From an uncultured Oscillospiraceae bacterium (GTDB lineage Bacteria > Bacillota > Clostridia > Oscillospirales > Oscillospiraceae), in contig CAKTPO010000008.1 in NCBI GenBank assembly GCA_934591845.1, positions 1 through 64,000 on the forward strand: DNA of 64,000 bases, given 5' to 3'. Position numbers and translations under genes: made by a program. Position 1 is the first letter of the stretch, and each line of letters opens with the position of its first letter. The notes beneath the pieces are model-generated. The model ran no database searches and was not told the origin of the DNA. It was given only the letters and a program-made list of their open reading frames with translations. This document shows, in pieces, positions 43,431-57,510 of this stretch.

Positions 43431-43475
43431 AATTCAGCGGGGCCTCCCCACGTTCGGGAGGCTCCGCTGAATTTT
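43431..43475 (+). terminator. Terminator of the trmB-to-Cof operon
   Basis: A long stem AATTCAGCGGGGCCTCCC / GGGAGGCTCCGCTGAATT with one mismatch, loop of about 8 nt, followed by TT. Bidirectional in appearance. Confidence 0.88.
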
Positions 43476-43500
43476 ATGTATCCCCTCGCTGGGGGCGCAG

Positions 43501-43958
43501 TTGACAGTTGACAGTTGACAGTGGACAGTTGACAGTTGACAGTTATTAGAACGACCTACGTTGTTTCTTTTCATCCGTCTGATAAAGTATGTAGGGAACG
43601 GCCTGTGTGCCGTTCCGCTGCGTGGCAATAATAACCCGTGTGGACAAAACAAAACCGCCCCCCGATTATGTCATTCCGAGCGAAACGCAGTGAGTCGAGA
43701 AATCTTCCCGAGTTGCTGGTTTTATCTTGTGTTGGTTCTTCATCCCACGTGGTGGATTCCTCCACTCCGCTACCGCTACGGTCGGAATGACACAACGGGG
43801 GGACGTTTTTTGTGTTTTCGGTAACGGTTCCGTCCTTTGGGGTGCGGAACGGCACATAGGCCGTTCCCTACATACTTTACCGGACGGGTACAGATGAATA
43901 ACGTTGGTTGCCTCAATAATTGTCAATTGTCAATTGTCAATTGTCCATTGTCAATTTT
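43501..43958. repeat. Composite nested inverted-repeat element, copy 3 (best preserved)
   Basis: Order: heptamer array TTGACAG (43501-43544), linker with CGACCTACGTTGT, palindrome GTAGGGAACGG..CCGTTCC, CGTGTGGACAA, core TGTCATTCCGAG (43669) to GTCGGAATGACA (43792), then GTGCGGAACGGC..GCCGTTCCCTAC, linker with ACGTTGGTTG, and an array TTGTCAA (43917-43958). The outer arms of about 120 bp are inverted copies. It lacks a transposase, so it is MITE-like. Another fragment CCGTTCCCTACGGTTTCGCTG follows at 43967. The whole gap 43429-44273 holds this, the Crp-type site and the rnf promoter. Confidence 0.82.
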
Positions 43959-44140: not shown

Positions 44141-44154
44141 GTTGCTATGGCAAC
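44141..44154. promoter_or_regulatory. Inverted repeat GTTGC-N4-GCAAC upstream of rnf
   Basis: GTTGC-TATG-GCAAC. Its half-sites and spacing are identical to the palindrome between the Crp/Fnr gene and ABC operon at 55022-55035. Its centre lies about 60 bp before the predicted rnf start, a class I activator position. Confidence 0.6.
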
Positions 44155-44172: not shown

Positions 44173-44201
44173 TTGATTCTTTGTGACGAATAAATTACAA
44201 T
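44173..44201 (+). promoter_or_regulatory. Promoter of the rnf operon
   Basis: TTGATT (44173-44178) and TACAAT (44196-44201), spacer 17 bp. A small hairpin GCGGGG/CCCCGC follows at 44222-44236 in the leader. Confidence 0.7.
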
Positions 44202-44273
44202 AAAACGGTAGTATGCCATGTGCGGGGAAACCCCGCCTGACAGAAAATTTGAATGAAGATAGGAGAGATACAC

Positions 44274-45602
44274 ATGGACATCAAAACGTTCCATGGCGGT
44301 GTCCATCCGGCGGGAAACAAGGCGCTTTCCCAGGACTGCCCCCTGACGGCCCTGCTTCCCAAGGGTGAGCTGGTTTATATGACCAACCAGCATATTGGCA
44401 AACCGGCAACTCCCGTGGTCAAAAAAGGCGACCATGTGCTGGCCGGTCAGCTGATTGCAGAAGCGGGAGGCTTTGTCTCCGCCAATATTTACGCTTCCGT
44501 ATCCGGCACTGTAAAGGCAGTGGAGCCCAGAAAGAACGCCTCCGGCGGCTCTGCCACGGCCATTGTGGTGGAAAATGACGGGGAATACACCCTGGCTGAG
44601 GGCATCGGTCAGGAGACAGACCCCAAAGAACTTACCAATCAGGATATTCTGTCCCGGATCCAGAAGGCCGGTATTGTCGGTATGGGCGGCGCAGGTTTTC
44701 CCACCCACGTCAAGCTCACCGTAAAAGAGCCGGAGAAAATCGATTACATCATTGCCAACGGCGCCGAGTGCGAGCCCTACATCACCTGTGACGACCAGCT
44801 GATGCGCTCCAAATCCCGGGAGATCGTCACGGGGTTGGAGCTGATTTTGCGGCTGTTCCCCAACGCCAAGGGCGTGGTGGTCATTGAAAACAACAAGCCC
44901 CAGGCCATTGCCGCTATGGAAGAAGCGGTCAAGGGCCATGACCGGGTATATGTGCAGCCGGTGCTGACCAAGTACCCCCAGGGCGGTGAACGCTCTTTGA
45001 TCACCGTGATCACCCAGAAGCACCTGAAGCTGGGCATGCTCCCGGCGGATGCAGGCTGCGTTGTGGACAACGTGGGTACGATTTACGCCATTTACCGGGC
45101 GGTGTGTTTCAATGAGCCTTTGATGGAGCGTGGCTTTACGGTGTCCGGCGATGCCGTGGAGAAACCCGGCAACTTCTGGGTCAAAATCGGCACCAGCCAC
45201 CAGGAAGTGGTGGATGCCTGCGGCGGCTTCCGGGAAGAACCCAAGAAAGTTCTCAGCGGCGGCCCCATGATGGGCTTTGCCATGACCGGGCTGGAAGCCC
45301 CCATCTGCAAGAACAACAACGCCCTGACCGCCCTGGTGGTGGACGAGGTGGCCGTTGCGGAGGAAGAAATGACCGCCTGTCTGCGCTGCGGACGGTGCAG
45401 TCGGGCCTGCCCCCTGGGCCTGTCTCCCCAGCTGATGCAGGTGGCCGCCATCCGGAAGGACTATGACCGCTATGAGCACAAGCTCTACGGCCTGGACTGC
45501 ATCGGCTGCGGTTGCTGCACCTATGGCTGTCCTGCCAAGCGGCCCCTTATGCAGCTGTTCAAAACCACCAAGGCCGAAATCATGGCTATGAAGAAACGAT
45601 AA
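44274..45602 (+). CDS. rnfC: Rnf complex subunit RnfC
   Basis: A 442-residue subunit that binds NADH and FMN and passes electrons to the Fe-S clusters. It has the RnfC N-terminal domain (TFHGGVHPAGNK), the GMGGAGFPTHVK nucleotide site, and two [4Fe-4S] motifs CLRCGRCSRACPLGLSP and CIGCGCCTYGCPAKRP. The complex couples ferredoxin:NAD+ electron transfer to Na+ or H+ pumping. The ATG at 44274 has AGGAG 8 nt upstream. It is the first gene of rnfC-DG-E-A-B. Confidence 0.96.
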   Translation: MDIKTFHGGVHPAGNKALSQDCPLTALLPKGELVYMTNQHIGKPATPVVKKGDHVLAGQLIAEAGGFVSANIYASVSGTVKAVEPRKNASGGSATAIVVENDGEYTLAEGIGQETDPKELTNQDILSRIQKAGIVGMGGAGFPTHVKLTVKEPEKIDYIIANGAECEPYITCDDQLMRSKSREIVTGLELILRLFPNAKGVVVIENNKPQAIAAMEEAVKGHDRVYVQPVLTKYPQGGERSLITVITQKHLKLGMLPADAGCVVDNVGTIYAIYRAVCFNEPLMERGFTVSGDAVEKPGNFWVKIGTSHQEVVDACGGFREEPKKVLSGGPMMGFAMTGLEAPICKNNNALTALVVDEVAVAEEEMTACLRCGRCSRACPLGLSPQLMQVAAIRKDYDRYEHKLYGLDCIGCGCCTYGCPAKRPLMQLFKTTKAEIMAMKKR

Positions 45603-45618
45603 GGAGGGGGACGGACAT

Positions 45619-47151
45619 ATGGATAACCTTTACAATGTATCTTCTTGCCCCCATGTAAGAAGCAAACTCACCACCCAGGCCGTTATGACCGATGTACTCA
45701 TTGCCCTGTTGCCCACGGCAGCTTTGGGCGTGGTGTTCCACGGCTACCGGGCCCTGCTGGTGATCCTCCTGTCCATGGCCAGTGCCGTGGCAACGGAGTA
45801 TCTGTTCAACCTGGTGACCCACCGGAAGCAGACCGTGTATGACCGCAGTGCCATGGTAACGGGTCTGCTGCTGGCCCTGACCCTGCCCGCCAGAGTGCCG
45901 CTGTACCTGCCGGTTCTGGGCGCAGTGTTTGCCATTCTCGTGGTCAAGTGCCTCTTTGGCGGCCTGGGCCACAATATTATGAACCCTGCCCTGACCGGTC
46001 GGAGCTTCCTGCTGATTTCCTTCGGCAACATGATGACCGTTTACTCCGCCGGCGTAGACGGTGTTACCTCTGCCACCCCTCTGGCTCTGCTGGCTGACGG
46101 CCAGATCCCCAGCCTGTTCCCCATCTTAATGGGCAGCGCCAGCGGCGTGATCGGCTCCTCTGCCATTGCCCTGATCCTGGGCGGCCTGTACCTCCTGGCC
46201 AGACGGGGCATCACCTGGGAAATTCCCGTTTCCATGATCGGCGTGACCTGGCTGTTCCTGGTGATTTTTGGCGGCCACGGCTTTAATCCCAACTACATCC
46301 TGCCCCAGCTCTTTGGCGGCGGTCTGATGATGGCAGCGTTCTTCATGGCAACGGATCCCGTGTCCTGCCCCTCTACAAGAGACGGCCAGCTGGTGTTCGG
46401 TGCCTTCGCTGGTCTGCTGATTGGCCTGTTCCGGGTCAAGAGCGTGTCCCCGGACTCCACCACCTACGCCATTCTGATTGCGGACCTGGTAGGCCCTGTG
46501 ATCGATGACCTGATCATCCCCACTCCCTTTGGCTACCGCATTCCCAAGGAGCGGAAAAAGGCCATTCCCAAGCCTGTGATCATCCTGCTGGTCATTACCA
46601 TCATTGCGGGCCTGGCCCTCAGCGGTGTGTACGTCAACACCAAGGACACCATTGCCGCCAACAAGGCCGCTGCCCAGAAAGCCGCTTTCCTGGAAGTGGT
46701 TCCCGATGCGGCAGACTTTACCGAGGACGAAACCTTCCAGCAGGCCCTGGCCTCCTTTGATGCCTCTGCCTACGGCAAGGTCACCATTGACTCCGCTGTG
46801 GTGGGTACCGATGCCTCCGGCAATGTGGTGGGCTATGCCATCATCGTCTCCAACGCCGACAGCTATGACGGCGGTGTGAGCCTGGTAGTGGGCGTTGCCG
46901 CCGACGGCACCGTCAACGGCATCTCCTTTACGGAACTCCACGAGACCCCGGGCATGGGCATGCGCTGCGGTGACCCGGAGTTTATGGACCAGTTCTCCGG
47001 CGTGAAGGTCTCCAAGTTCACCTTGAATAAGAGCGGCGGCTCCACCGCAGACGACACCATCGACTCCGTTTCCGGTGCCACCGTGTCCTCTCGTGCCGTG
47101 GTCAATGCCGTCAATGCCGCGCTGGACTTCGTATCCGGCCGGATCGGTTAA
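45619..47151 (+). CDS. rnfD: Fused RnfD-RnfG subunit of the Rnf complex
   Basis: A 510-residue protein. Residues about 1-315 are RnfD: nine or so TM helices, with the covalent-FMN region DGVTSATPLALL and GGGLMMAAFFMATDP. A short linker RIPKERKKAIPK leads at about residue 318 into RnfG: one TM helix, then the FMN-binding domain with DSVSGATVSSRAV, where Thr in SGAT takes FMN. Most genomes encode RnfD and RnfG as separate genes. The coding frame is continuous with no stop or frameshift. AGGAGG precedes the ATG by about 10 nt. Confidence 0.93.
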   Translation: MDNLYNVSSCPHVRSKLTTQAVMTDVLIALLPTAALGVVFHGYRALLVILLSMASAVATEYLFNLVTHRKQTVYDRSAMVTGLLLALTLPARVPLYLPVLGAVFAILVVKCLFGGLGHNIMNPALTGRSFLLISFGNMMTVYSAGVDGVTSATPLALLADGQIPSLFPILMGSASGVIGSSAIALILGGLYLLARRGITWEIPVSMIGVTWLFLVIFGGHGFNPNYILPQLFGGGLMMAAFFMATDPVSCPSTRDGQLVFGAFAGLLIGLFRVKSVSPDSTTYAILIADLVGPVIDDLIIPTPFGYRIPKERKKAIPKPVIILLVITIIAGLALSGVYVNTKDTIAANKAAAQKAAFLEVVPDAADFTEDETFQQALASFDASAYGKVTIDSAVVGTDASGNVVGYAIIVSNADSYDGGVSLVVGVAADGTVNGISFTELHETPGMGMRCGDPEFMDQFSGVKVSKFTLNKSGGSTADDTIDSVSGATVSSRAVVNAVNAALDFVSGRIG

Positions 47152-47162
47152 GGAGGGATACC

Positions 47163-47825
47163 ATGAAACCCTGTGTAGAACGTATTTACAACGGCCTGGT
47201 AAAAGAGAACCCGGTATTCGTGCTGATGCTGGGCATGTGTCCCACCCTGGCCGTTACCACCTCTGCCATCAATGGCTTCGGCATGGGCATGTCCTCGCTG
47301 GTGGTTCTGGCGGTTTCCAACCTGGTTATTTCCATGCTCCGCAAGATCATTCCCGATGAAGTCCGTCTTCCGGCCTTTATCGTGGTGGTTGCCTCTTTCG
47401 TCACCGTGGTGGAGCTGCTGATGGAAGCTTATTTGCAGTCGCTCTATGCCGCTCTGGGCATTTACATTCCTTTGATCGTGGTCAACTGCATCATCCTGGG
47501 CCGGGCAGAGGCCTACGCTTCCAAGAACCCGCCCCTTTTGAGTCTGTTTGACGGCATTGGCATGGGCCTGGGCTTCACCGTGGGCCTGACCATCATCGGT
47601 GCCATCCGGGAAATTCTGGGCAGCGGCAGCATTTTTGGCATCACCATTCCCGGCTACGAGCCTATGGCATTCTTCATCCGCGCCCCCGGTGCGTTCCTGG
47701 TGCTGGCGGTGCTGGTGGCCATTATGAATGCCGTAGGCATCAAGAACCGTGCCAACAAGATCACCGAGGGCTGCGATGGCTGCTGCGCCAGCTGCTCTAC
47801 GGGCTGCGAAAAAAAGGAGGGCTAA
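47163..47825 (+). CDS. rnfE: Rnf complex subunit RnfE
   Basis: A 220-residue membrane subunit of the NqrD/RnfE family with six TM helices. It begins ERIYNGLVKENPVFVLMLGMCP, whose Cys is a ligand of the buried [2Fe-2S] centre shared with RnfA, and has VVNCIILGRAEAYASKN. The C-terminal tail is Cys-rich (CDGCCASCSTGC), which is uncommon and could bind metal. AGGAGG lies 5 nt before the ATG. Confidence 0.95.
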   Translation: MKPCVERIYNGLVKENPVFVLMLGMCPTLAVTTSAINGFGMGMSSLVVLAVSNLVISMLRKIIPDEVRLPAFIVVVASFVTVVELLMEAYLQSLYAALGIYIPLIVVNCIILGRAEAYASKNPPLLSLFDGIGMGLGFTVGLTIIGAIREILGSGSIFGITIPGYEPMAFFIRAPGAFLVLAVLVAIMNAVGIKNRANKITEGCDGCCASCSTGCEKKEG

Positions 47826-47828
47826 GGG

Positions 47829-48404
47829 ATGTCCAGTTTAATTCTCATCATCGTCACCACAGCCCTGGTCAACAACGTGGTTTTGAGCCAGTTTTTGGGC
47901 ATCTGCTCTTTCCTGGGCGTATCCTCCCAGAAAAAGGCCTCCTTGTCCTTAGGCTTGGCCGTTACCGCCGTTCTGACGGTTTCCTCGGCTGTCGCCAGCA
48001 TTCTCTATGACCATGTGCTGCTGCCTCTGGGCCTGGATTACCTGAAGACCATCGTGTTCATTCTGGTTATTGCCGCCCTGGTGCAGATGGTGGAAATGTA
48101 CCTGAAAAAGAATGCCCACGCCATTTACCAGTCTCTGGGCATTTATCTGCCGCTGATCACCACCAACTGCGCCGTTCTGGGCGTGGCCTTGACCAACGTA
48201 CAGAATGGGTATAACCTGCTGGAAAGCATTTTTGCGGGCCTGGGTACCGCCATTGGCTACACCGTGGCAATTGTTTTGCTGGCCGTCGTCCGGGAACACC
48301 TGGACGAGGAGGCCATTCCCGCCCCTTTCCGGGGCGCACCCATTGTGCTGCTGTGCGCAACGCTGATGGCCATGGCGTTCATGGGCTTCAGCGGCCTGGC
48401 CTAA
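47829..48404 (+). CDS. rnfA: Rnf complex subunit RnfA
   Basis: A 191-residue membrane subunit of the NqrE/RnfA family with six TM helices. Conserved parts are NNVVLSQFLGICSFLGVS and ITTNCAVLGVAL, each with a Cys for the membrane Fe-S centre. It starts 3 nt after rnfE, with GGAGG upstream. Confidence 0.96.
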   Translation: MSSLILIIVTTALVNNVVLSQFLGICSFLGVSSQKKASLSLGLAVTAVLTVSSAVASILYDHVLLPLGLDYLKTIVFILVIAALVQMVEMYLKKNAHAIYQSLGIYLPLITTNCAVLGVALTNVQNGYNLLESIFAGLGTAIGYTVAIVLLAVVREHLDEEAIPAPFRGAPIVLLCATLMAMAFMGFSGLA

Positions 48405-48416
48405 GGAGGAGAGAAT

Positions 48417-49208
48417 ATGCAGGGAATTATTGTGGCAACGCTGGTGATTGGTGTGGTGGGCCTGGTTCTGGGCCTGGCACTGGTCACCGCCAGTAAGAAA
48501 TTCTATGTGGAAGTAGACGACCGGGTCACCCGTGTCCGGGAGTGTCTGCGGGGTGCCAACTGCGGTGCCTGCGGCTACGCCGGTTGTGATGCGGTGGCAG
48601 AGGCCATGGTAAAGGGTGAGGCGAGAATCGATGCCTGCCCCGGCAATAGCTCGGAGAACATTGCCAAAATCGCCGCCATCCTGGGCAAGGAGAGCGTGGA
48701 CCAGGATCCCCAGGTGGCCTATGTCCGCTGTGCCGGTACCTGTGAGACCACCAAGGCCAAGGCCAACTATGTGGGTTTGCAGGATTGCCGCGCCGCGGTA
48801 CTCTCCGGCGGTCTGGGCTTTATGTCCTGCGACTATGGCTGTATCGGCCTGGGCAGCTGCGTCAAGGTCTGCCCTGAGGGCGGTATCTCCATCCGCAACG
48901 GCATTGCCCATGTGGACCAGTCCAAGTGCGTGGGCTGCGGCATGTGCGCCAAGACCTGCCCCAAACATGTGATTGAAATGCACGACCGGGTAAGCAAGGT
49001 GGCCGTCAGCTGCTCCAACCACGACCGTGGCCCCGCGGTCAAGAAAGTCTGCACCGCCGGTTGTATCGGCTGCGGCATCTGCGTCAAGCAGTGTGAGCAG
49101 GGTGCCGTGACCCTCCAAAACAACCTGGCCGTGGTAGACCCGGAAAAATGCGTGGCCTGTGGCAAATGCGTGGAAAAGTGTCCCACCAAGGCCATTCACT
49201 TCCTGTAA
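48417..49208 (+). CDS. rnfB: Rnf complex subunit RnfB
   Basis: A 263-residue ferredoxin-like subunit that accepts electrons from reduced ferredoxin. An N-terminal TM anchor (about 4-24) is followed by the Fe-S domain with CLRGANCGACGYAGCD..ACPG and then [4Fe-4S] motifs CDYGCIGLGSCVKVCP, CVGCGMCAKTCP, CIGCGICVKQCEQ and CVACGKCVEKCP. It is the last gene of the operon. Confidence 0.96.
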   Translation: MQGIIVATLVIGVVGLVLGLALVTASKKFYVEVDDRVTRVRECLRGANCGACGYAGCDAVAEAMVKGEARIDACPGNSSENIAKIAAILGKESVDQDPQVAYVRCAGTCETTKAKANYVGLQDCRAAVLSGGLGFMSCDYGCIGLGSCVKVCPEGGISIRNGIAHVDQSKCVGCGMCAKTCPKHVIEMHDRVSKVAVSCSNHDRGPAVKKVCTAGCIGCGICVKQCEQGAVTLQNNLAVVDPEKCVACGKCVEKCPTKAIHFL

Positions 49209-54309: not shown

Positions 54310-55002
54310 TCAGTTGATGTCCTGCCGCAGCTTTTCCAAATCCAGGATTCGGAAGGTGTCTTTATAGTAGTCCAGAATTCCGGCTTCTTTCATCCGCCCG
54401 ATTTCCCGGGACAGGGCGCTGCGGTTGGCCCCTAAGAAATCCGCCAGGTCTTCCCGGGTACCACCTAAGGAGAAGGTCAGGCTGCCGGTGCGGCGGTATT
54501 CGTCAAACAACCGCAGGGCGATGCGCTGCCGCAGGGACTTGGCCGAGAGGTACAGCACCCGCTGCCGCTGCATCCAGAATTTGGCGGCGATTTCCGACAC
54601 CAGATTTTCCCGAAGCCGGGTGTGCCAGGCGCAGCAGTCGGCGCAGCTGTGCATGATCCGGTGATAAGGAAGAAACAGCAGCTCCGTTTCCTCCGAAGCC
54701 ACCACATACACAGGGCTTCTGCCCCCTGGGGTGGCCATCAGCACATCCCCCACCAGGGCACCGGGGCCGTGGGTGGCCATGAGCTGGTGTTCCCCGGCGG
54801 CGTTGACGGATTCTGCCCGCAACGCACCGGACAGCACCAGGGCGCAGGATTGGAGGGTGTCTCCAATGTTCCAGACCACGGTGTTTTTTTCGTATCGCTC
54901 CTGCCGGGCTTTCAGGCACCCCAGCATGGTGTCGATTTGTTCCGGGGCAATGCCGGAAAAGAGTCCGCAGTGATATAATATGCTGCGCTGCTGCTGATTC
55001 AT
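54310..55002 (-). CDS. Crp/Fnr family transcriptional regulator
   Basis: A 230-residue protein. A cyclic-nucleotide-fold sensor domain (about 10-125), a dimer helix (about 126-150) and a winged HTH (about 165-225) with TREDLADFLGANRSALSREI as helix-turn-helix. Cys120, Cys123 and Cys124 (CADCC) lie at the start of the dimer helix and could form a redox or Fe-S site; this is inference. The start at 55002 follows AGGGGTG. It is divergent from the ABC operon, with the palindrome GTTGC-AATT-GCAAC between them, its probable binding site. Confidence 0.88.
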   Translation of the reverse strand: MNQQQRSILYHCGLFSGIAPEQIDTMLGCLKARQERYEKNTVVWNIGDTLQSCALVLSGALRAESVNAAGEHQLMATHGPGALVGDVLMATPGGRSPVYVVASEETELLFLPYHRIMHSCADCCAWHTRLRENLVSEIAAKFWMQRQRVLYLSAKSLRQRIALRLFDEYRRTGSLTFSLGGTREDLADFLGANRSALSREIGRMKEAGILDYYKDTFRILDLEKLRQDIN

Positions 55003-55021: not shown

Positions 55022-55035
55022 GTTGCAATTGCAAC
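55022..55035. promoter_or_regulatory. Candidate Crp/Fnr operator GTTGC-N4-GCAAC
   Basis: The palindrome CGTTGCAATTGCAACG is centred at 55028.5. For the ABC operon, whose -10 is TACAAT (55059-55064), this is about -42, a class II activator position. For the regulator gene it lies about +16, fitting autorepression. Confidence 0.65.
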
Positions 55036-55051
55036 GGACTTTATAGGAGCA

Positions 55052-55080
55052 AGTATAGTACAATCCCTGTAGAAAGTCAA
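55052..55080 (-). promoter_or_regulatory. Promoter of the Crp/Fnr gene
   Basis: On the minus strand TTGACT (55080-55075) and TATACT (55057-55052), spacer 17 bp. Confidence 0.75.
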
Positions 55081-55121
55081 GGATGGGCAGCAGCTTTGCC
55101 TGTCCGGAAAGAGGAACCATG

Positions 55122-56174
55122 ATGAAAAAGTGGATTGCTTGTATTTGCTTGCTGGCCCTGACCCTGGGGCTGCTGGGGGGCTGCGGAACGGCCCCAACCC
55201 CGGAGACCATCCCGGAGACCGCCCCGGAGACCACAGTGGAAACCACCGCCGCCCCGGAGACTGCAGCCCCTGCCCAGGAGGCTGTGACCGTTCGCTTAGG
55301 TGCCATGACCGGCCCTACCGGTATGGGCATGGTGCGGCTCTTTGAAACCGCCGATGAAAACCCTGATTCCGGCTACACCTATTCCATCAAGGGCGCGGCG
55401 GACGAACTGACCCCGCTGCTGCTGCAAGGGGAACTGGACATTGTTTCGGTTCCTGCCAACCTGGCCTCCGTCCTGTACAACAAGACCCAGGGCAAGGTGA
55501 CGGCCTTGGCGGTAAATGTGCTGGGAGTCCTTTATATTGGGGAGTACGGCGGGGAAACCGTGAAAACTCTGGAGGATTTAAAGGGCAAGACCCTTTACGC
55601 CACCGGCAAGGGGGCCACCCCGGAATATTTCCTGCGGTATGTCCTCAGTGAAAACGGACTGGATGCGGACAAGGACTTGGACATTCAGTGGAAAAGCGAA
55701 CCCAGTGAGGTGGTGGCCACGCTGAACGCCCAGGGCCAGGGCATTGCCATGCTGCCCCAGCCCTATGTCACCGCCGCCGGTGTCCAGCTGGGCGAGGGCT
55801 TCCATGTGGCATTGTCCATTTCGGAGGAATGGGAAAAACTGGGTGGCGGCAGCCTGTGTACCACGGCCTGCATTCTGGCCAGAACGGAATTTGTGGAGTC
55901 CCACCCCCAGGCGGTGGAAGCGTTTCTGAAAGACTTTGAAGAAAGTGTTGCCTGGGTCAACGAAAATCCCGACCAGGCCGGGGAACTGTGCGGAAGCTTT
56001 TCCATCGTCAAGGCCCCCATTGCCAAAAAGGCCATCCCCCAGTGCAATCTGGTGTGCATTACGGGAGAAGAAATGAAGACCGCCCTGAGTGGCTGCCTGG
56101 AAGTGCTGCTGGGCCAGAACCCGGCAGCGGTAGGCGGGGCCCTGCCTGGGGATGATTTCTACTATGGCGCATAA
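55122..56174 (+). CDS. NitT/TauT-type ABC transporter substrate-binding lipoprotein
   Basis: A 350-residue lipoprotein. Signal peptide with lipobox LLGGC (Cys near residue 21), a Thr/Pro/Glu-rich linker (about 25-55), then an SsuA/NMT1-like binding domain (RLGAMTGPTGMGMVRL, LDIVSVPANLASVLYN, GKTLYATGKGATPEYFLRY). Such proteins bind nitrate, sulfonates, thiamine precursors or similar small molecules; the ligand is not known. ATG 55122 lies 7 nt after GAGG; ATG 55119 is adjacent and possible. It is the first gene of a three-gene operon divergent from the Crp/Fnr gene. Confidence 0.85.
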   Translation: MKKWIACICLLALTLGLLGGCGTAPTPETIPETAPETTVETTAAPETAAPAQEAVTVRLGAMTGPTGMGMVRLFETADENPDSGYTYSIKGAADELTPLLLQGELDIVSVPANLASVLYNKTQGKVTALAVNVLGVLYIGEYGGETVKTLEDLKGKTLYATGKGATPEYFLRYVLSENGLDADKDLDIQWKSEPSEVVATLNAQGQGIAMLPQPYVTAAGVQLGEGFHVALSISEEWEKLGGGSLCTTACILARTEFVESHPQAVEAFLKDFEESVAWVNENPDQAGELCGSFSIVKAPIAKKAIPQCNLVCITGEEMKTALSGCLEVLLGQNPAAVGGALPGDDFYYGA

Positions 56175-56940
56175 AAAAACCGATGTCCAGAATCAAAAGG
56201 CGGCAAAACTCCTTGCCGCCTTTTTGGCGTTGTGTCTGTGGCTGCTGGCGGCGGTGCTGGTGGATAACCGGCTGCTGCTGGCAGGCCCTTTGCAAGTGGC
56301 GGAGCGGCTGTGGCAATTATTGGGGGAACAAACCACCTGGCAGGCCCTGGGATGCAGCTTTGGCCGGATCAGTCTGGGCTTTTTCCTGGCCTTTGCCCTG
56401 GCCCTGGTATTGGCGGCAGTGTCCGCCCGGTTTTCCCTGGCAGAAATCCTGCTGCGGCCCTATGTGTTGGCCATCCAGACCGTGCCGGTGGCCTCCTTTA
56501 TTGTCATTGCCCTGCTGTGGCTCTCCGGTCGGCATTTGAGCATTTTTATTTCGTTCCTTATGGTGCTGCCGGTGCTGTACGCCAACGCCTTACAGGGCTT
56601 CCGGGCCGCAGACCGGCAGCTGCTGGAAATGGCCCAGGTGTTCCGGATGCCCCGTTTTCGCCGTGTCCGGTGCATTTTCCTGCCTGCCCTGGCCCCTTAC
56701 CTGAAATCCGCCTGTCATGTGGCCCTGGGCCTGTGCTGGAAAGCGGGGGTGGCGGCAGAGGTCATTGCGGTGACGGAAAAGTCTGTAGGCGGCATGCTGT
56801 ATGATGCCAAGGTCTATCTGGAAATTCCGGATTTGTTCTCCTGGACGGTGCTGATCGTGGCGGTGAGCCTGGGCTTTGAAAAGCTGTTTCTGGCTCTGCT
56901 GAACCGGGCTATGAACCGACTTATCCAATGGGAGGGGTAG
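56164..56940 (+). CDS. NitT/TauT-type ABC transporter permease
   Basis: A 258-residue permease with six TM segments. It resembles SsuC/TauC: CSFGRISLGFFLAFALAL, ILLRPYVLAIQTVPVASFIVIAL and the coupling loop AAEVIAVTEKSVGGMLYDA. The start at 56164 overlaps the lipoprotein end by 11 bp; an ATG at 56152 is an alternative. It forms the channel with the next ATPase. Confidence 0.88.
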   Translation: MAHKKTDVQNQKAAKLLAAFLALCLWLLAAVLVDNRLLLAGPLQVAERLWQLLGEQTTWQALGCSFGRISLGFFLAFALALVLAAVSARFSLAEILLRPYVLAIQTVPVASFIVIALLWLSGRHLSIFISFLMVLPVLYANALQGFRAADRQLLEMAQVFRMPRFRRVRCIFLPALAPYLKSACHVALGLCWKAGVAAEVIAVTEKSVGGMLYDAKVYLEIPDLFSWTVLIVAVSLGFEKLFLALLNRAMNRLIQWEG

Positions 56941-56943
56941 CAT

Positions 56944-57510
56944 ATGGCGTTGACAGTCAAGAACATCTATAAGGCCTATGATGGAAAACCGGTGCTGGAA
57001 GATTTTTCAGCCCTCTTTGTCCCCGGAAAGACCTATGCCATTATGGGTCCCTCCGGCAGGGGAAAAACCACATTGCTTCGGCTGATTCTGGGTCTAGAAA
57101 AGCCGGACGCCGGGGAAATCTCCGGTGTTCCCCAGCGGAAAGCCGCCGTGTTTCAGGAAAGCCGCCTGTGTCCGGAATTGACCGCCCGGCAAAACATCGG
57201 CCTGGTGCTGGAACGGGGGCAGGAGGAGTCTATTTCCGGAATGCTGGAAATGCTTCACTTGACGGACTGCCAGAAAACCAAAGCCGCCGCCCTCTCCGGG
57301 GGCCAGCAGCGCCGTGCCGCTTTGGCAAGAGCGCTTCTGTACAATGGGGAGCTGCTGGTACTGGACGAACCCTTTACCGGCCTGGACGAAGAAACCAAAT
57401 CCCAGGCCCTGGCCGCCATCCGCACCGCCCGGGGAAGGGCCACCGTCCTTCTGGTCACCCACAACCGGGAAGATGCCGCCGCCCTGGGGGCGGAAATCAT
57501 CGAGCTATAG
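56944..57510 (+). CDS. ABC transporter ATP-binding protein, short
   Basis: A 188-residue ATPase with Walker A GPSGRGKTT, signature LSGGQQRRAALARAL, Walker B LLVLDEPFTGLD and switch His in LLVTHNRED. It is about 60 residues shorter than SsuB/TauB, ending straight after the switch region, so the C-terminal part is missing but all catalytic motifs are kept. GGAGG lies 8 nt before the ATG. It is the third gene of the operon. Confidence 0.9.
   Translation: MALTVKNIYKAYDGKPVLEDFSALFVPGKTYAIMGPSGRGKTTLLRLILGLEKPDAGEISGVPQRKAAVFQESRLCPELTARQNIGLVLERGQEESISGMLEMLHLTDCQKTKAAALSGGQQRRAALARALLYNGELLVLDEPFTGLDEETKSQALAAIRTARGRATVLLVTHNREDAAALGAEIIEL

Follow-up and report, generated by a model that had tools for sequence, protein, structure and literature searches.

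A predicted operator of an HcpR2-like Crp/Fnr regulator upstream of an ABC importer operon and, in a small lineage, of the rnf operon

We have good confidence that GTTGCnnnnGCAAC is the operator of an HcpR2-like Crp/Fnr activator encoded at 54310-55002 of a 64,000-nucleotide stretch of DNA from an uncultured Oscillospiraceae bacterium (hereafter, the window). As predicted from its sequence and relatives, this activator probably represses its own gene, and its regulon would include a NitT/TauT-type ABC importer and, in a small lineage, the Rnf complex. The operator is almost certainly real at the regulator and importer promoters, and very probably so at the rnf promoter. The kind of regulator is already known; its target set and layout we did not find described in the literature searched, which also yielded little on the control of Rnf in gut clostridia. 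If the prediction is true, Rnf is tied to an HcpR-type circuit, which would tell when these anaerobes spend or build their ion gradient under stress.

Two exact matches in the window and their promoter positions

The motif GTTGC-N4-GCAAC has exactly two exact matches in the window, one 5′ of rnfC and the other between the regulator gene and the ABC operon, which verifies the claim of a first-pass annotation that the same half-sites and spacing recur at both places. The features on which the following analysis is based are:

44141..44154, no strand assigned: operator 5′ of rnfC, GTTGCTATGGCAAC (exact match; half-sites kept in relatives G001 and G002)
44173..44178, + strand: predicted –35 region of the rnf promoter, TTGATT (from the sequence; TTGAT kept in G001 and G002)
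44196..44201, + strand: predicted –10 region of the rnf promoter, TACAAT, operator centre at –60.5 (ungapped alignment: TACAAT in G001, TAGAAT in G002)
44274..45602, + strand: rnfC (start assigned from the ribosome site and from homologs; the listed ORF begins at 44253; TIGR01945 over cut-off)
45619..47151, + strand: rnfD-rnfG fusion (TIGR01946 at residues 11-305 and TIGR01947 at residues 320-505, both over cut-off)
47163..47825, + strand: rnfE (TIGR01948 over cut-off)
47829..48404, + strand: rnfA (TIGR01943 over cut-off)
48417..49208, + strand: rnfB (TIGR01944 over cut-off)
54310..55002, – strand: Crp/Fnr regulator, HcpR2-like, recognition helix NRSALSRE (PF00027 and PF13545 over cut-off)
55022..55035, no strand assigned: operator between the Crp/Fnr regulator gene and the ABC operon, GTTGCAATTGCAAC (exact match; conserved in relatives)
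55052..55057, – strand: predicted –10 region of the regulator promoter, TATACT (from the sequence)
55059..55064, + strand: predicted –10 region of the ABC operon, TACAAT, operator centre at –42.5 (from the sequence)
55075..55080, – strand: predicted –35 region of the regulator promoter, TTGACT, 17 bp from the –10 region (from the sequence)
55119..56174, + strand: lipoprotein-like substrate-binding protein, NitT/TauT/SsuA type (the listed ORF begins at 55083; PF13379 and PF09084 over cut-off; fold)
56152..56940, + strand: ABC permease (PF00528 over cut-off)
56944..57510, + strand: ABC ATPase (PF00005 over cut-off)

The regulator belongs to the Crp/Fnr superfamily by both of its domains (PF00027, 49.2 bits; PF13545, 51.3 bits), and a structure model agrees. 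An NMT1/SsuA-like binding protein, a permease and an ATPase in one operon identify the importer as NitT/TauT-type, and none of the NCBIfam substrate models scored over cut-off for its binding protein or permease. All subunits of the Rnf complex (rnfC, D, G, E, A and B) are encoded in one cluster with every subunit model over cut-off; RnfD and RnfG form a single reading frame of 510 residues. The interval from a HAD gene to the rnf promoter contains a nest of inverted repeats (43431-43954), in which outer arms of 111 nt (43508-43618 and 43844-43954; 79% complementary) enclose inner arms at 43651-43687 and 43774-43810. This nest resembles small mobile repeats and is accompanied by short tandem CAGTTGA/CAATTGT repeats.

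Activators of the CRP/FNR type in E. coli act from operator centres near –41.5 (class II) and –61.5 (class I), and both –41.5 and –60.5 read as classical activator positions. With transcription start points inferred from the –10 hexamers, and the distance for the regulator counted by hand from coordinates, the operator is centred at –42.5 for the ABC operon, at –60.5 for rnf (TTGATT-N17-TACAAT) and at about +17 for the regulator (TTGACT-N17-TATACT). These values agree with the distances of about –42, –60 and +16 claimed previously, and with the class II and class I positions assigned to ABC and rnf, respectively; an alternative ABC –10 hexamer, TATAGT, would place the centre at –37.5. The system is like E. 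coli CRP and FNR in its centres (–41.5/–42.5 and –60.5) and unlike them in operator sequence.

From this layout, we infer both binding by the regulator and the direction of its effect. A dimer at –42.5 would contact polymerase and activate the divergent ABC operon from the class II position, and the same dimer at 55022-55035 would get in the way of the start of the regulator gene, and the switch would thereby limit itself. Because it would sit about 17 bases downstream of that start, and because the divergent regulator and ABC promoters overlap, it is expected to limit expression of the regulator gene. At rnf, where the centre is displaced upstream by one to two helical turns, to –60.5, a dimer would activate rnfC-DG-E-A-B as a class I activator.

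Taken alone, the window is a lead and no proof, and its two matches could have arisen by chance: shuffled versions contain on average 0.21 exact sites, and two of 100 contain at least two. Sites with up to one mismatch (3 versus 2.88 by chance) or up to two mismatches (39 versus 37.5) show no excess in the window.

Conservation of the operator in relatives

A scan of one genome per species returned 180 stretches encoding a relative of the regulator, of which the best 80 were kept. Because one of the two scan patterns was the recognition helix, this helix is common to the 80 loci largely by construction and other helices were not sampled; upstream DNA had no role in choosing the loci. The exact site adjoins 70 of these best 80 of 180 regulator genes, being located ≤320 bp upstream in 64 and ≤250 bp downstream in 11 (70 with at least one of these). 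When every 5-mer is considered with a 4-bp spacer, the second commonest repeat turns up at 3 of the 80 loci, and among spacings of 0-20, shifted readings of the same site appear in 28, 26, 10 and 8 loci, with everything else at ≤6. The remainder of the 80 loci, 1.22 Mb in total, contains nine exact sites. No site is present in the regulator-flanking stretches of L006 (109 bp upstream examined), L010, L016, L022, L024, L029, L056, L059, L070 and L076; it is located about 500-700 bp upstream of the regulator in L010, L016 and L022, and 3.5 kb upstream, before frdX-hcp, in L029.

Importer homologues were collected from 25 genomes with the window's binding protein as query and without use of the motif. 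This protein is encoded in 19 genomes; the sequence before the operon is available in 18 of them (L246 is truncated), and every one of the 18 has the exact site no more than about 300 bp upstream. The next 5-N4-5 repeat occurs in three. Seven of the 18 operons lie beside the regulator and 11 on another contig. Seven regulators (L060, L062, L069, L072, L073, L075, L079) are followed in tandem by the importer or by its binding protein, with a site between regulator and importer. Since the exact site is present at unlinked as well as tandem importers, it tracks the importer promoter rather than a fixed spot beside the regulator. Judged by these sites, the importer is a widely shared predicted target, the most widely shared in the window's branch, and it therefore gives a starting point for finding the signal of the circuit.

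With the best –10 match within 50 bp past the operator as reference, the centre lies at –41.5 in 15 of the 18 importer operons, at –42.5 in two and at –40.5 in one. It also lies at –41.5 for 17 of 27 sites in hcp- or frdX-linked loci, again by best –10 match (22 of 23 loci, L045 omitted). These positions, together with –60.5 at rnf, make it improbable that the regulator acts from its sites as a repressor of ABC and rnf, an arrangement that the operator downstream of the start of the regulator's own gene would fit. We therefore keep activation of both operons as the preferred reading.

The link to Rnf is narrow. An RnfC search in the 25 genomes returned 30 loci, 26 of them with upstream sequence, and the exact site precedes two: those of G001 (RnfC 89% identical) and G002 (82%). 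RnfC is found at E 1e-120 or better in six of 136 genomes of the group given as G001's genus, and the four other than G001 and G002 (74%, 74%, 63% and 63%) show no exact site within 300-350 bp upstream. Conservation before rnf, the lack of which the first-pass annotation had named as grounds for rejection, is hence present in G001 and G002 and absent, in the 25-genome and six-genome sets, where RnfC is 74% identical or less. With three examples from close kin, Rnf would be an added target, so far confined to the window and the two relatives nearest to it.

The rnf match could be a palindrome of chance origin that these close relatives have not yet had time to lose, only the regulator/ABC site being real. 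Two sites do arise in 2 of 100 window shuffles, and the rnfC family has the exact site at only 2 of 26 loci. However, the alignment of the three rnfC upstream regions is ungapped between the operator and the –10 region. Around the operator, the half-sites are invariant (10/10) while the spacer has changed (1/4 invariant) and the flanks are invariant at 34 of 60 positions on the left and 27 of 60 on the right (45-57%). The GTTGC repeat is, moreover, the only 5-N4-5 repeat common to the three promoters, and it stands at a class I distance. We consider the chance explanation unlikely and favour a functional operator at rnf. The earlier proposal of one Crp/Fnr protein for both promoters receives good support from footprinting, in 70 of 80 loci for the regulator, in all 18 importer operons, and in the window plus two relatives with RnfC 82-89% identical.

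A genome-wide motif search, also proposed previously, looked negative when counted: the genomes of 25 relatives contain 70 exact sites versus 84 for a reversed-pattern control, i.e. no excess. In G001, three of four exact sites could be matched to targets (regulator/importer, rnfC and a truncated frdX-like gene 370 bp away), and in G002 four of five (regulator, unlinked importer, rnfC and a second frdX-like copy). The sites appear to be informative by place and conservation, not by number. The remaining sites in these nearest relatives are G001:C4:8729 and G002:C43:16878. The truncated frdX-like ferredoxin gene of G001 (L135:3371-3949) lies under a GTTGC site and is followed by an hcp-like piece out of frame; G001 also encodes an intact frdX-like gene and hcp elsewhere.

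Kinship with HcpR and recognition of the operator

Among the best 80 of 180 loci, hcp lies near the regulator in 18. The hcp- or frdX-linked loci span Ruminiclostridium, Tissierellales, Lachnospiraceae, Gastranaerophilales and Peptostreptococcaceae. The exact site precedes frdX-like genes in 3 of 14 loci, and in five relatives the 350 bp before the full-length hcp gene are free of it. Because relatives with the same helix have the operator before hcp or frdX-like genes, we call the window regulator HcpR2-like, a kinship absent from the first-pass annotation. All of the best 80 of 180 relatives carry Arg-Ser at the residues that our own alignment to CRP places as 180 and 181.

The HcpR2 proteins of clostridia and Bacteroides recognize GTAACnnnnGTTAC and target hcp and frdX, and motifs differ in the members with Ser at 181, which come from C. 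thermocellum and C. difficile, according to the available part of PMC1274295. Given Ser181 in the relatives, the motif class described here may already be published in that paper. As far as this partial source allows comparison, the window system is like HcpR2 in its 5-N4-5 palindrome, Crp/Fnr fold, and retained Arg180 with the Ser181 variant, as well as in the 18 of 80 hcp-adjoining loci whose regulators share helix and operator. It is unlike HcpR2 in its half-site (GTTGC, not GTAAC), so that GTTGCnnnnGCAAC departs from the HcpR2 operator, and in its predicted targets, importer and Rnf. In a quick tree without a published HcpR2 reference, the window regulator groups with importer-linked regulators, outside a fork of 49 rows (98, SH-aLRT only) that contains all 18 hcp-linked rows.

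Of the affected genes in C. difficile, only frdX-hcp is reported to be preceded by an HcpR site (PMC12915319, available part). The Desulfovibrio HcpR1 operator, TGTGA-N6-TCACA, is CRP-like and in this respect unlike that of the window (PMC5701242, available part). This HcpR-named regulator offers a loose parallel: in nitrate-grown D. desulfuricans, an HcpR1 species, the Rnf-like cluster Ddes_1238-1244 is induced, HcpR1 control of the cluster not being stated in that part of the source.

We searched 12 of the genomes for PF13545 and obtained 24 hits, of which 19 were readable and five were not. The exact site occurs ≤400 bp upstream of 11 of the 12 Crp/Fnr genes with helix NRSALSRE, all 12 belonging to the 80 regulator loci, versus none of seven with other helices. 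These counts bear on the possibility that a paralogous Crp/Fnr protein, for example one beside frdX-hcp, binds the sites instead of the window regulator. A second Crp/Fnr gene near hcp is indeed present in G001, G002 and G004, but the site tracks NRSALSRE, and paralog loci with a related palindrome show GTTGG, GTTGA or GTTGT; binding by a paralog is very unlikely, and the window regulator stays our candidate.

The variant half-sites are found near frdX-hcp paralogs of G004 and G024 (GTTGG), G020 (GTTGA) and G006 (GTTGT), and paralogs in G001, G002, G013 and G025 have no such palindrome. Upstream of frdX-like genes close to HcpR-like paralogs, L289, L294, L292 and L291 carry GTTGG-N4-CCAAC, GTTGA-N4-TCAAC and GTTGT-N4-ACAAC, which suggests that the fifth half-site base is changeable. 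The corresponding helices are ERSAMSAE (G004), DRSGLSVE (G020) and DRSAMSNE (G006), each pair being a single example from one genome. Such helix and operator pairs make the family a natural data set for Crp/Fnr DNA recognition.

Candidate sensor residues

The window regulator has a CADCC motif, which had been placed at the dimer helix. The motif does occupy residues 120-124, and the long dimer helix begins at 125 on the structure model. Cys29, Cys120 and Cys124 occur together in 46 of the best 80 of 180 relatives, always with His127, and in all 18 hcp-linked ones; at least one of the three is missing in 34, many of which keep the operator, and the earlier description of the regulator as redox-responsive is conjecture. 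Cys53 is present in the seven nearest loci (L001-L007) and in none of 44 loci of other groups counted. We regard the conserved Cys3-His set as a candidate sensor, and kinship with HcpR points to reactive nitrogen, or a redox stress related to it, as a possible signal.

The HcpR of Porphyromonas gingivalis (PDB 9day), to which the window regulator is 24% identical, has Met68 as proposed heme ligand (PMC12750200, available part); the window branch instead has Cys29, Cys53, Cys120 and Cys124. Met68 aligns with Ser65 of the window regulator (with an inferred tag offset of 14), and none of the 18 hcp-linked relatives has Met at this position.

A joint reading, which we offer as speculative, would have HcpR-type regulators in one cell insulated by a single operator base (GTTGC for importer/Rnf; GTTGG, GTTGA and GTTGT for frdX-hcp) with matching helices (NRSALSRE; ERSAMSAE, DRSGLSVE and DRSAMSNE). 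The importer/Rnf branch would sense via Cys3-His (plus Cys53) and not via the heme ligand of P. gingivalis HcpR, and Rnf would come under nitrosative or redox stress control so as to supply low-potential electrons.

A group of ten rows (L009, L010, L012, L015-L019, L021, L022) is without the cysteines. Its operator lies ≤320 bp from the regulator in seven and farther upstream in three, and because this group keeps the operator, the signal may differ among branches. In nine of these loci (all except L017), a gene for an acyltransferase-3 type membrane protein is divergent from the gene of the cysteine-free regulator, and in those genomes in which the importer was found, importer and site are unlinked.
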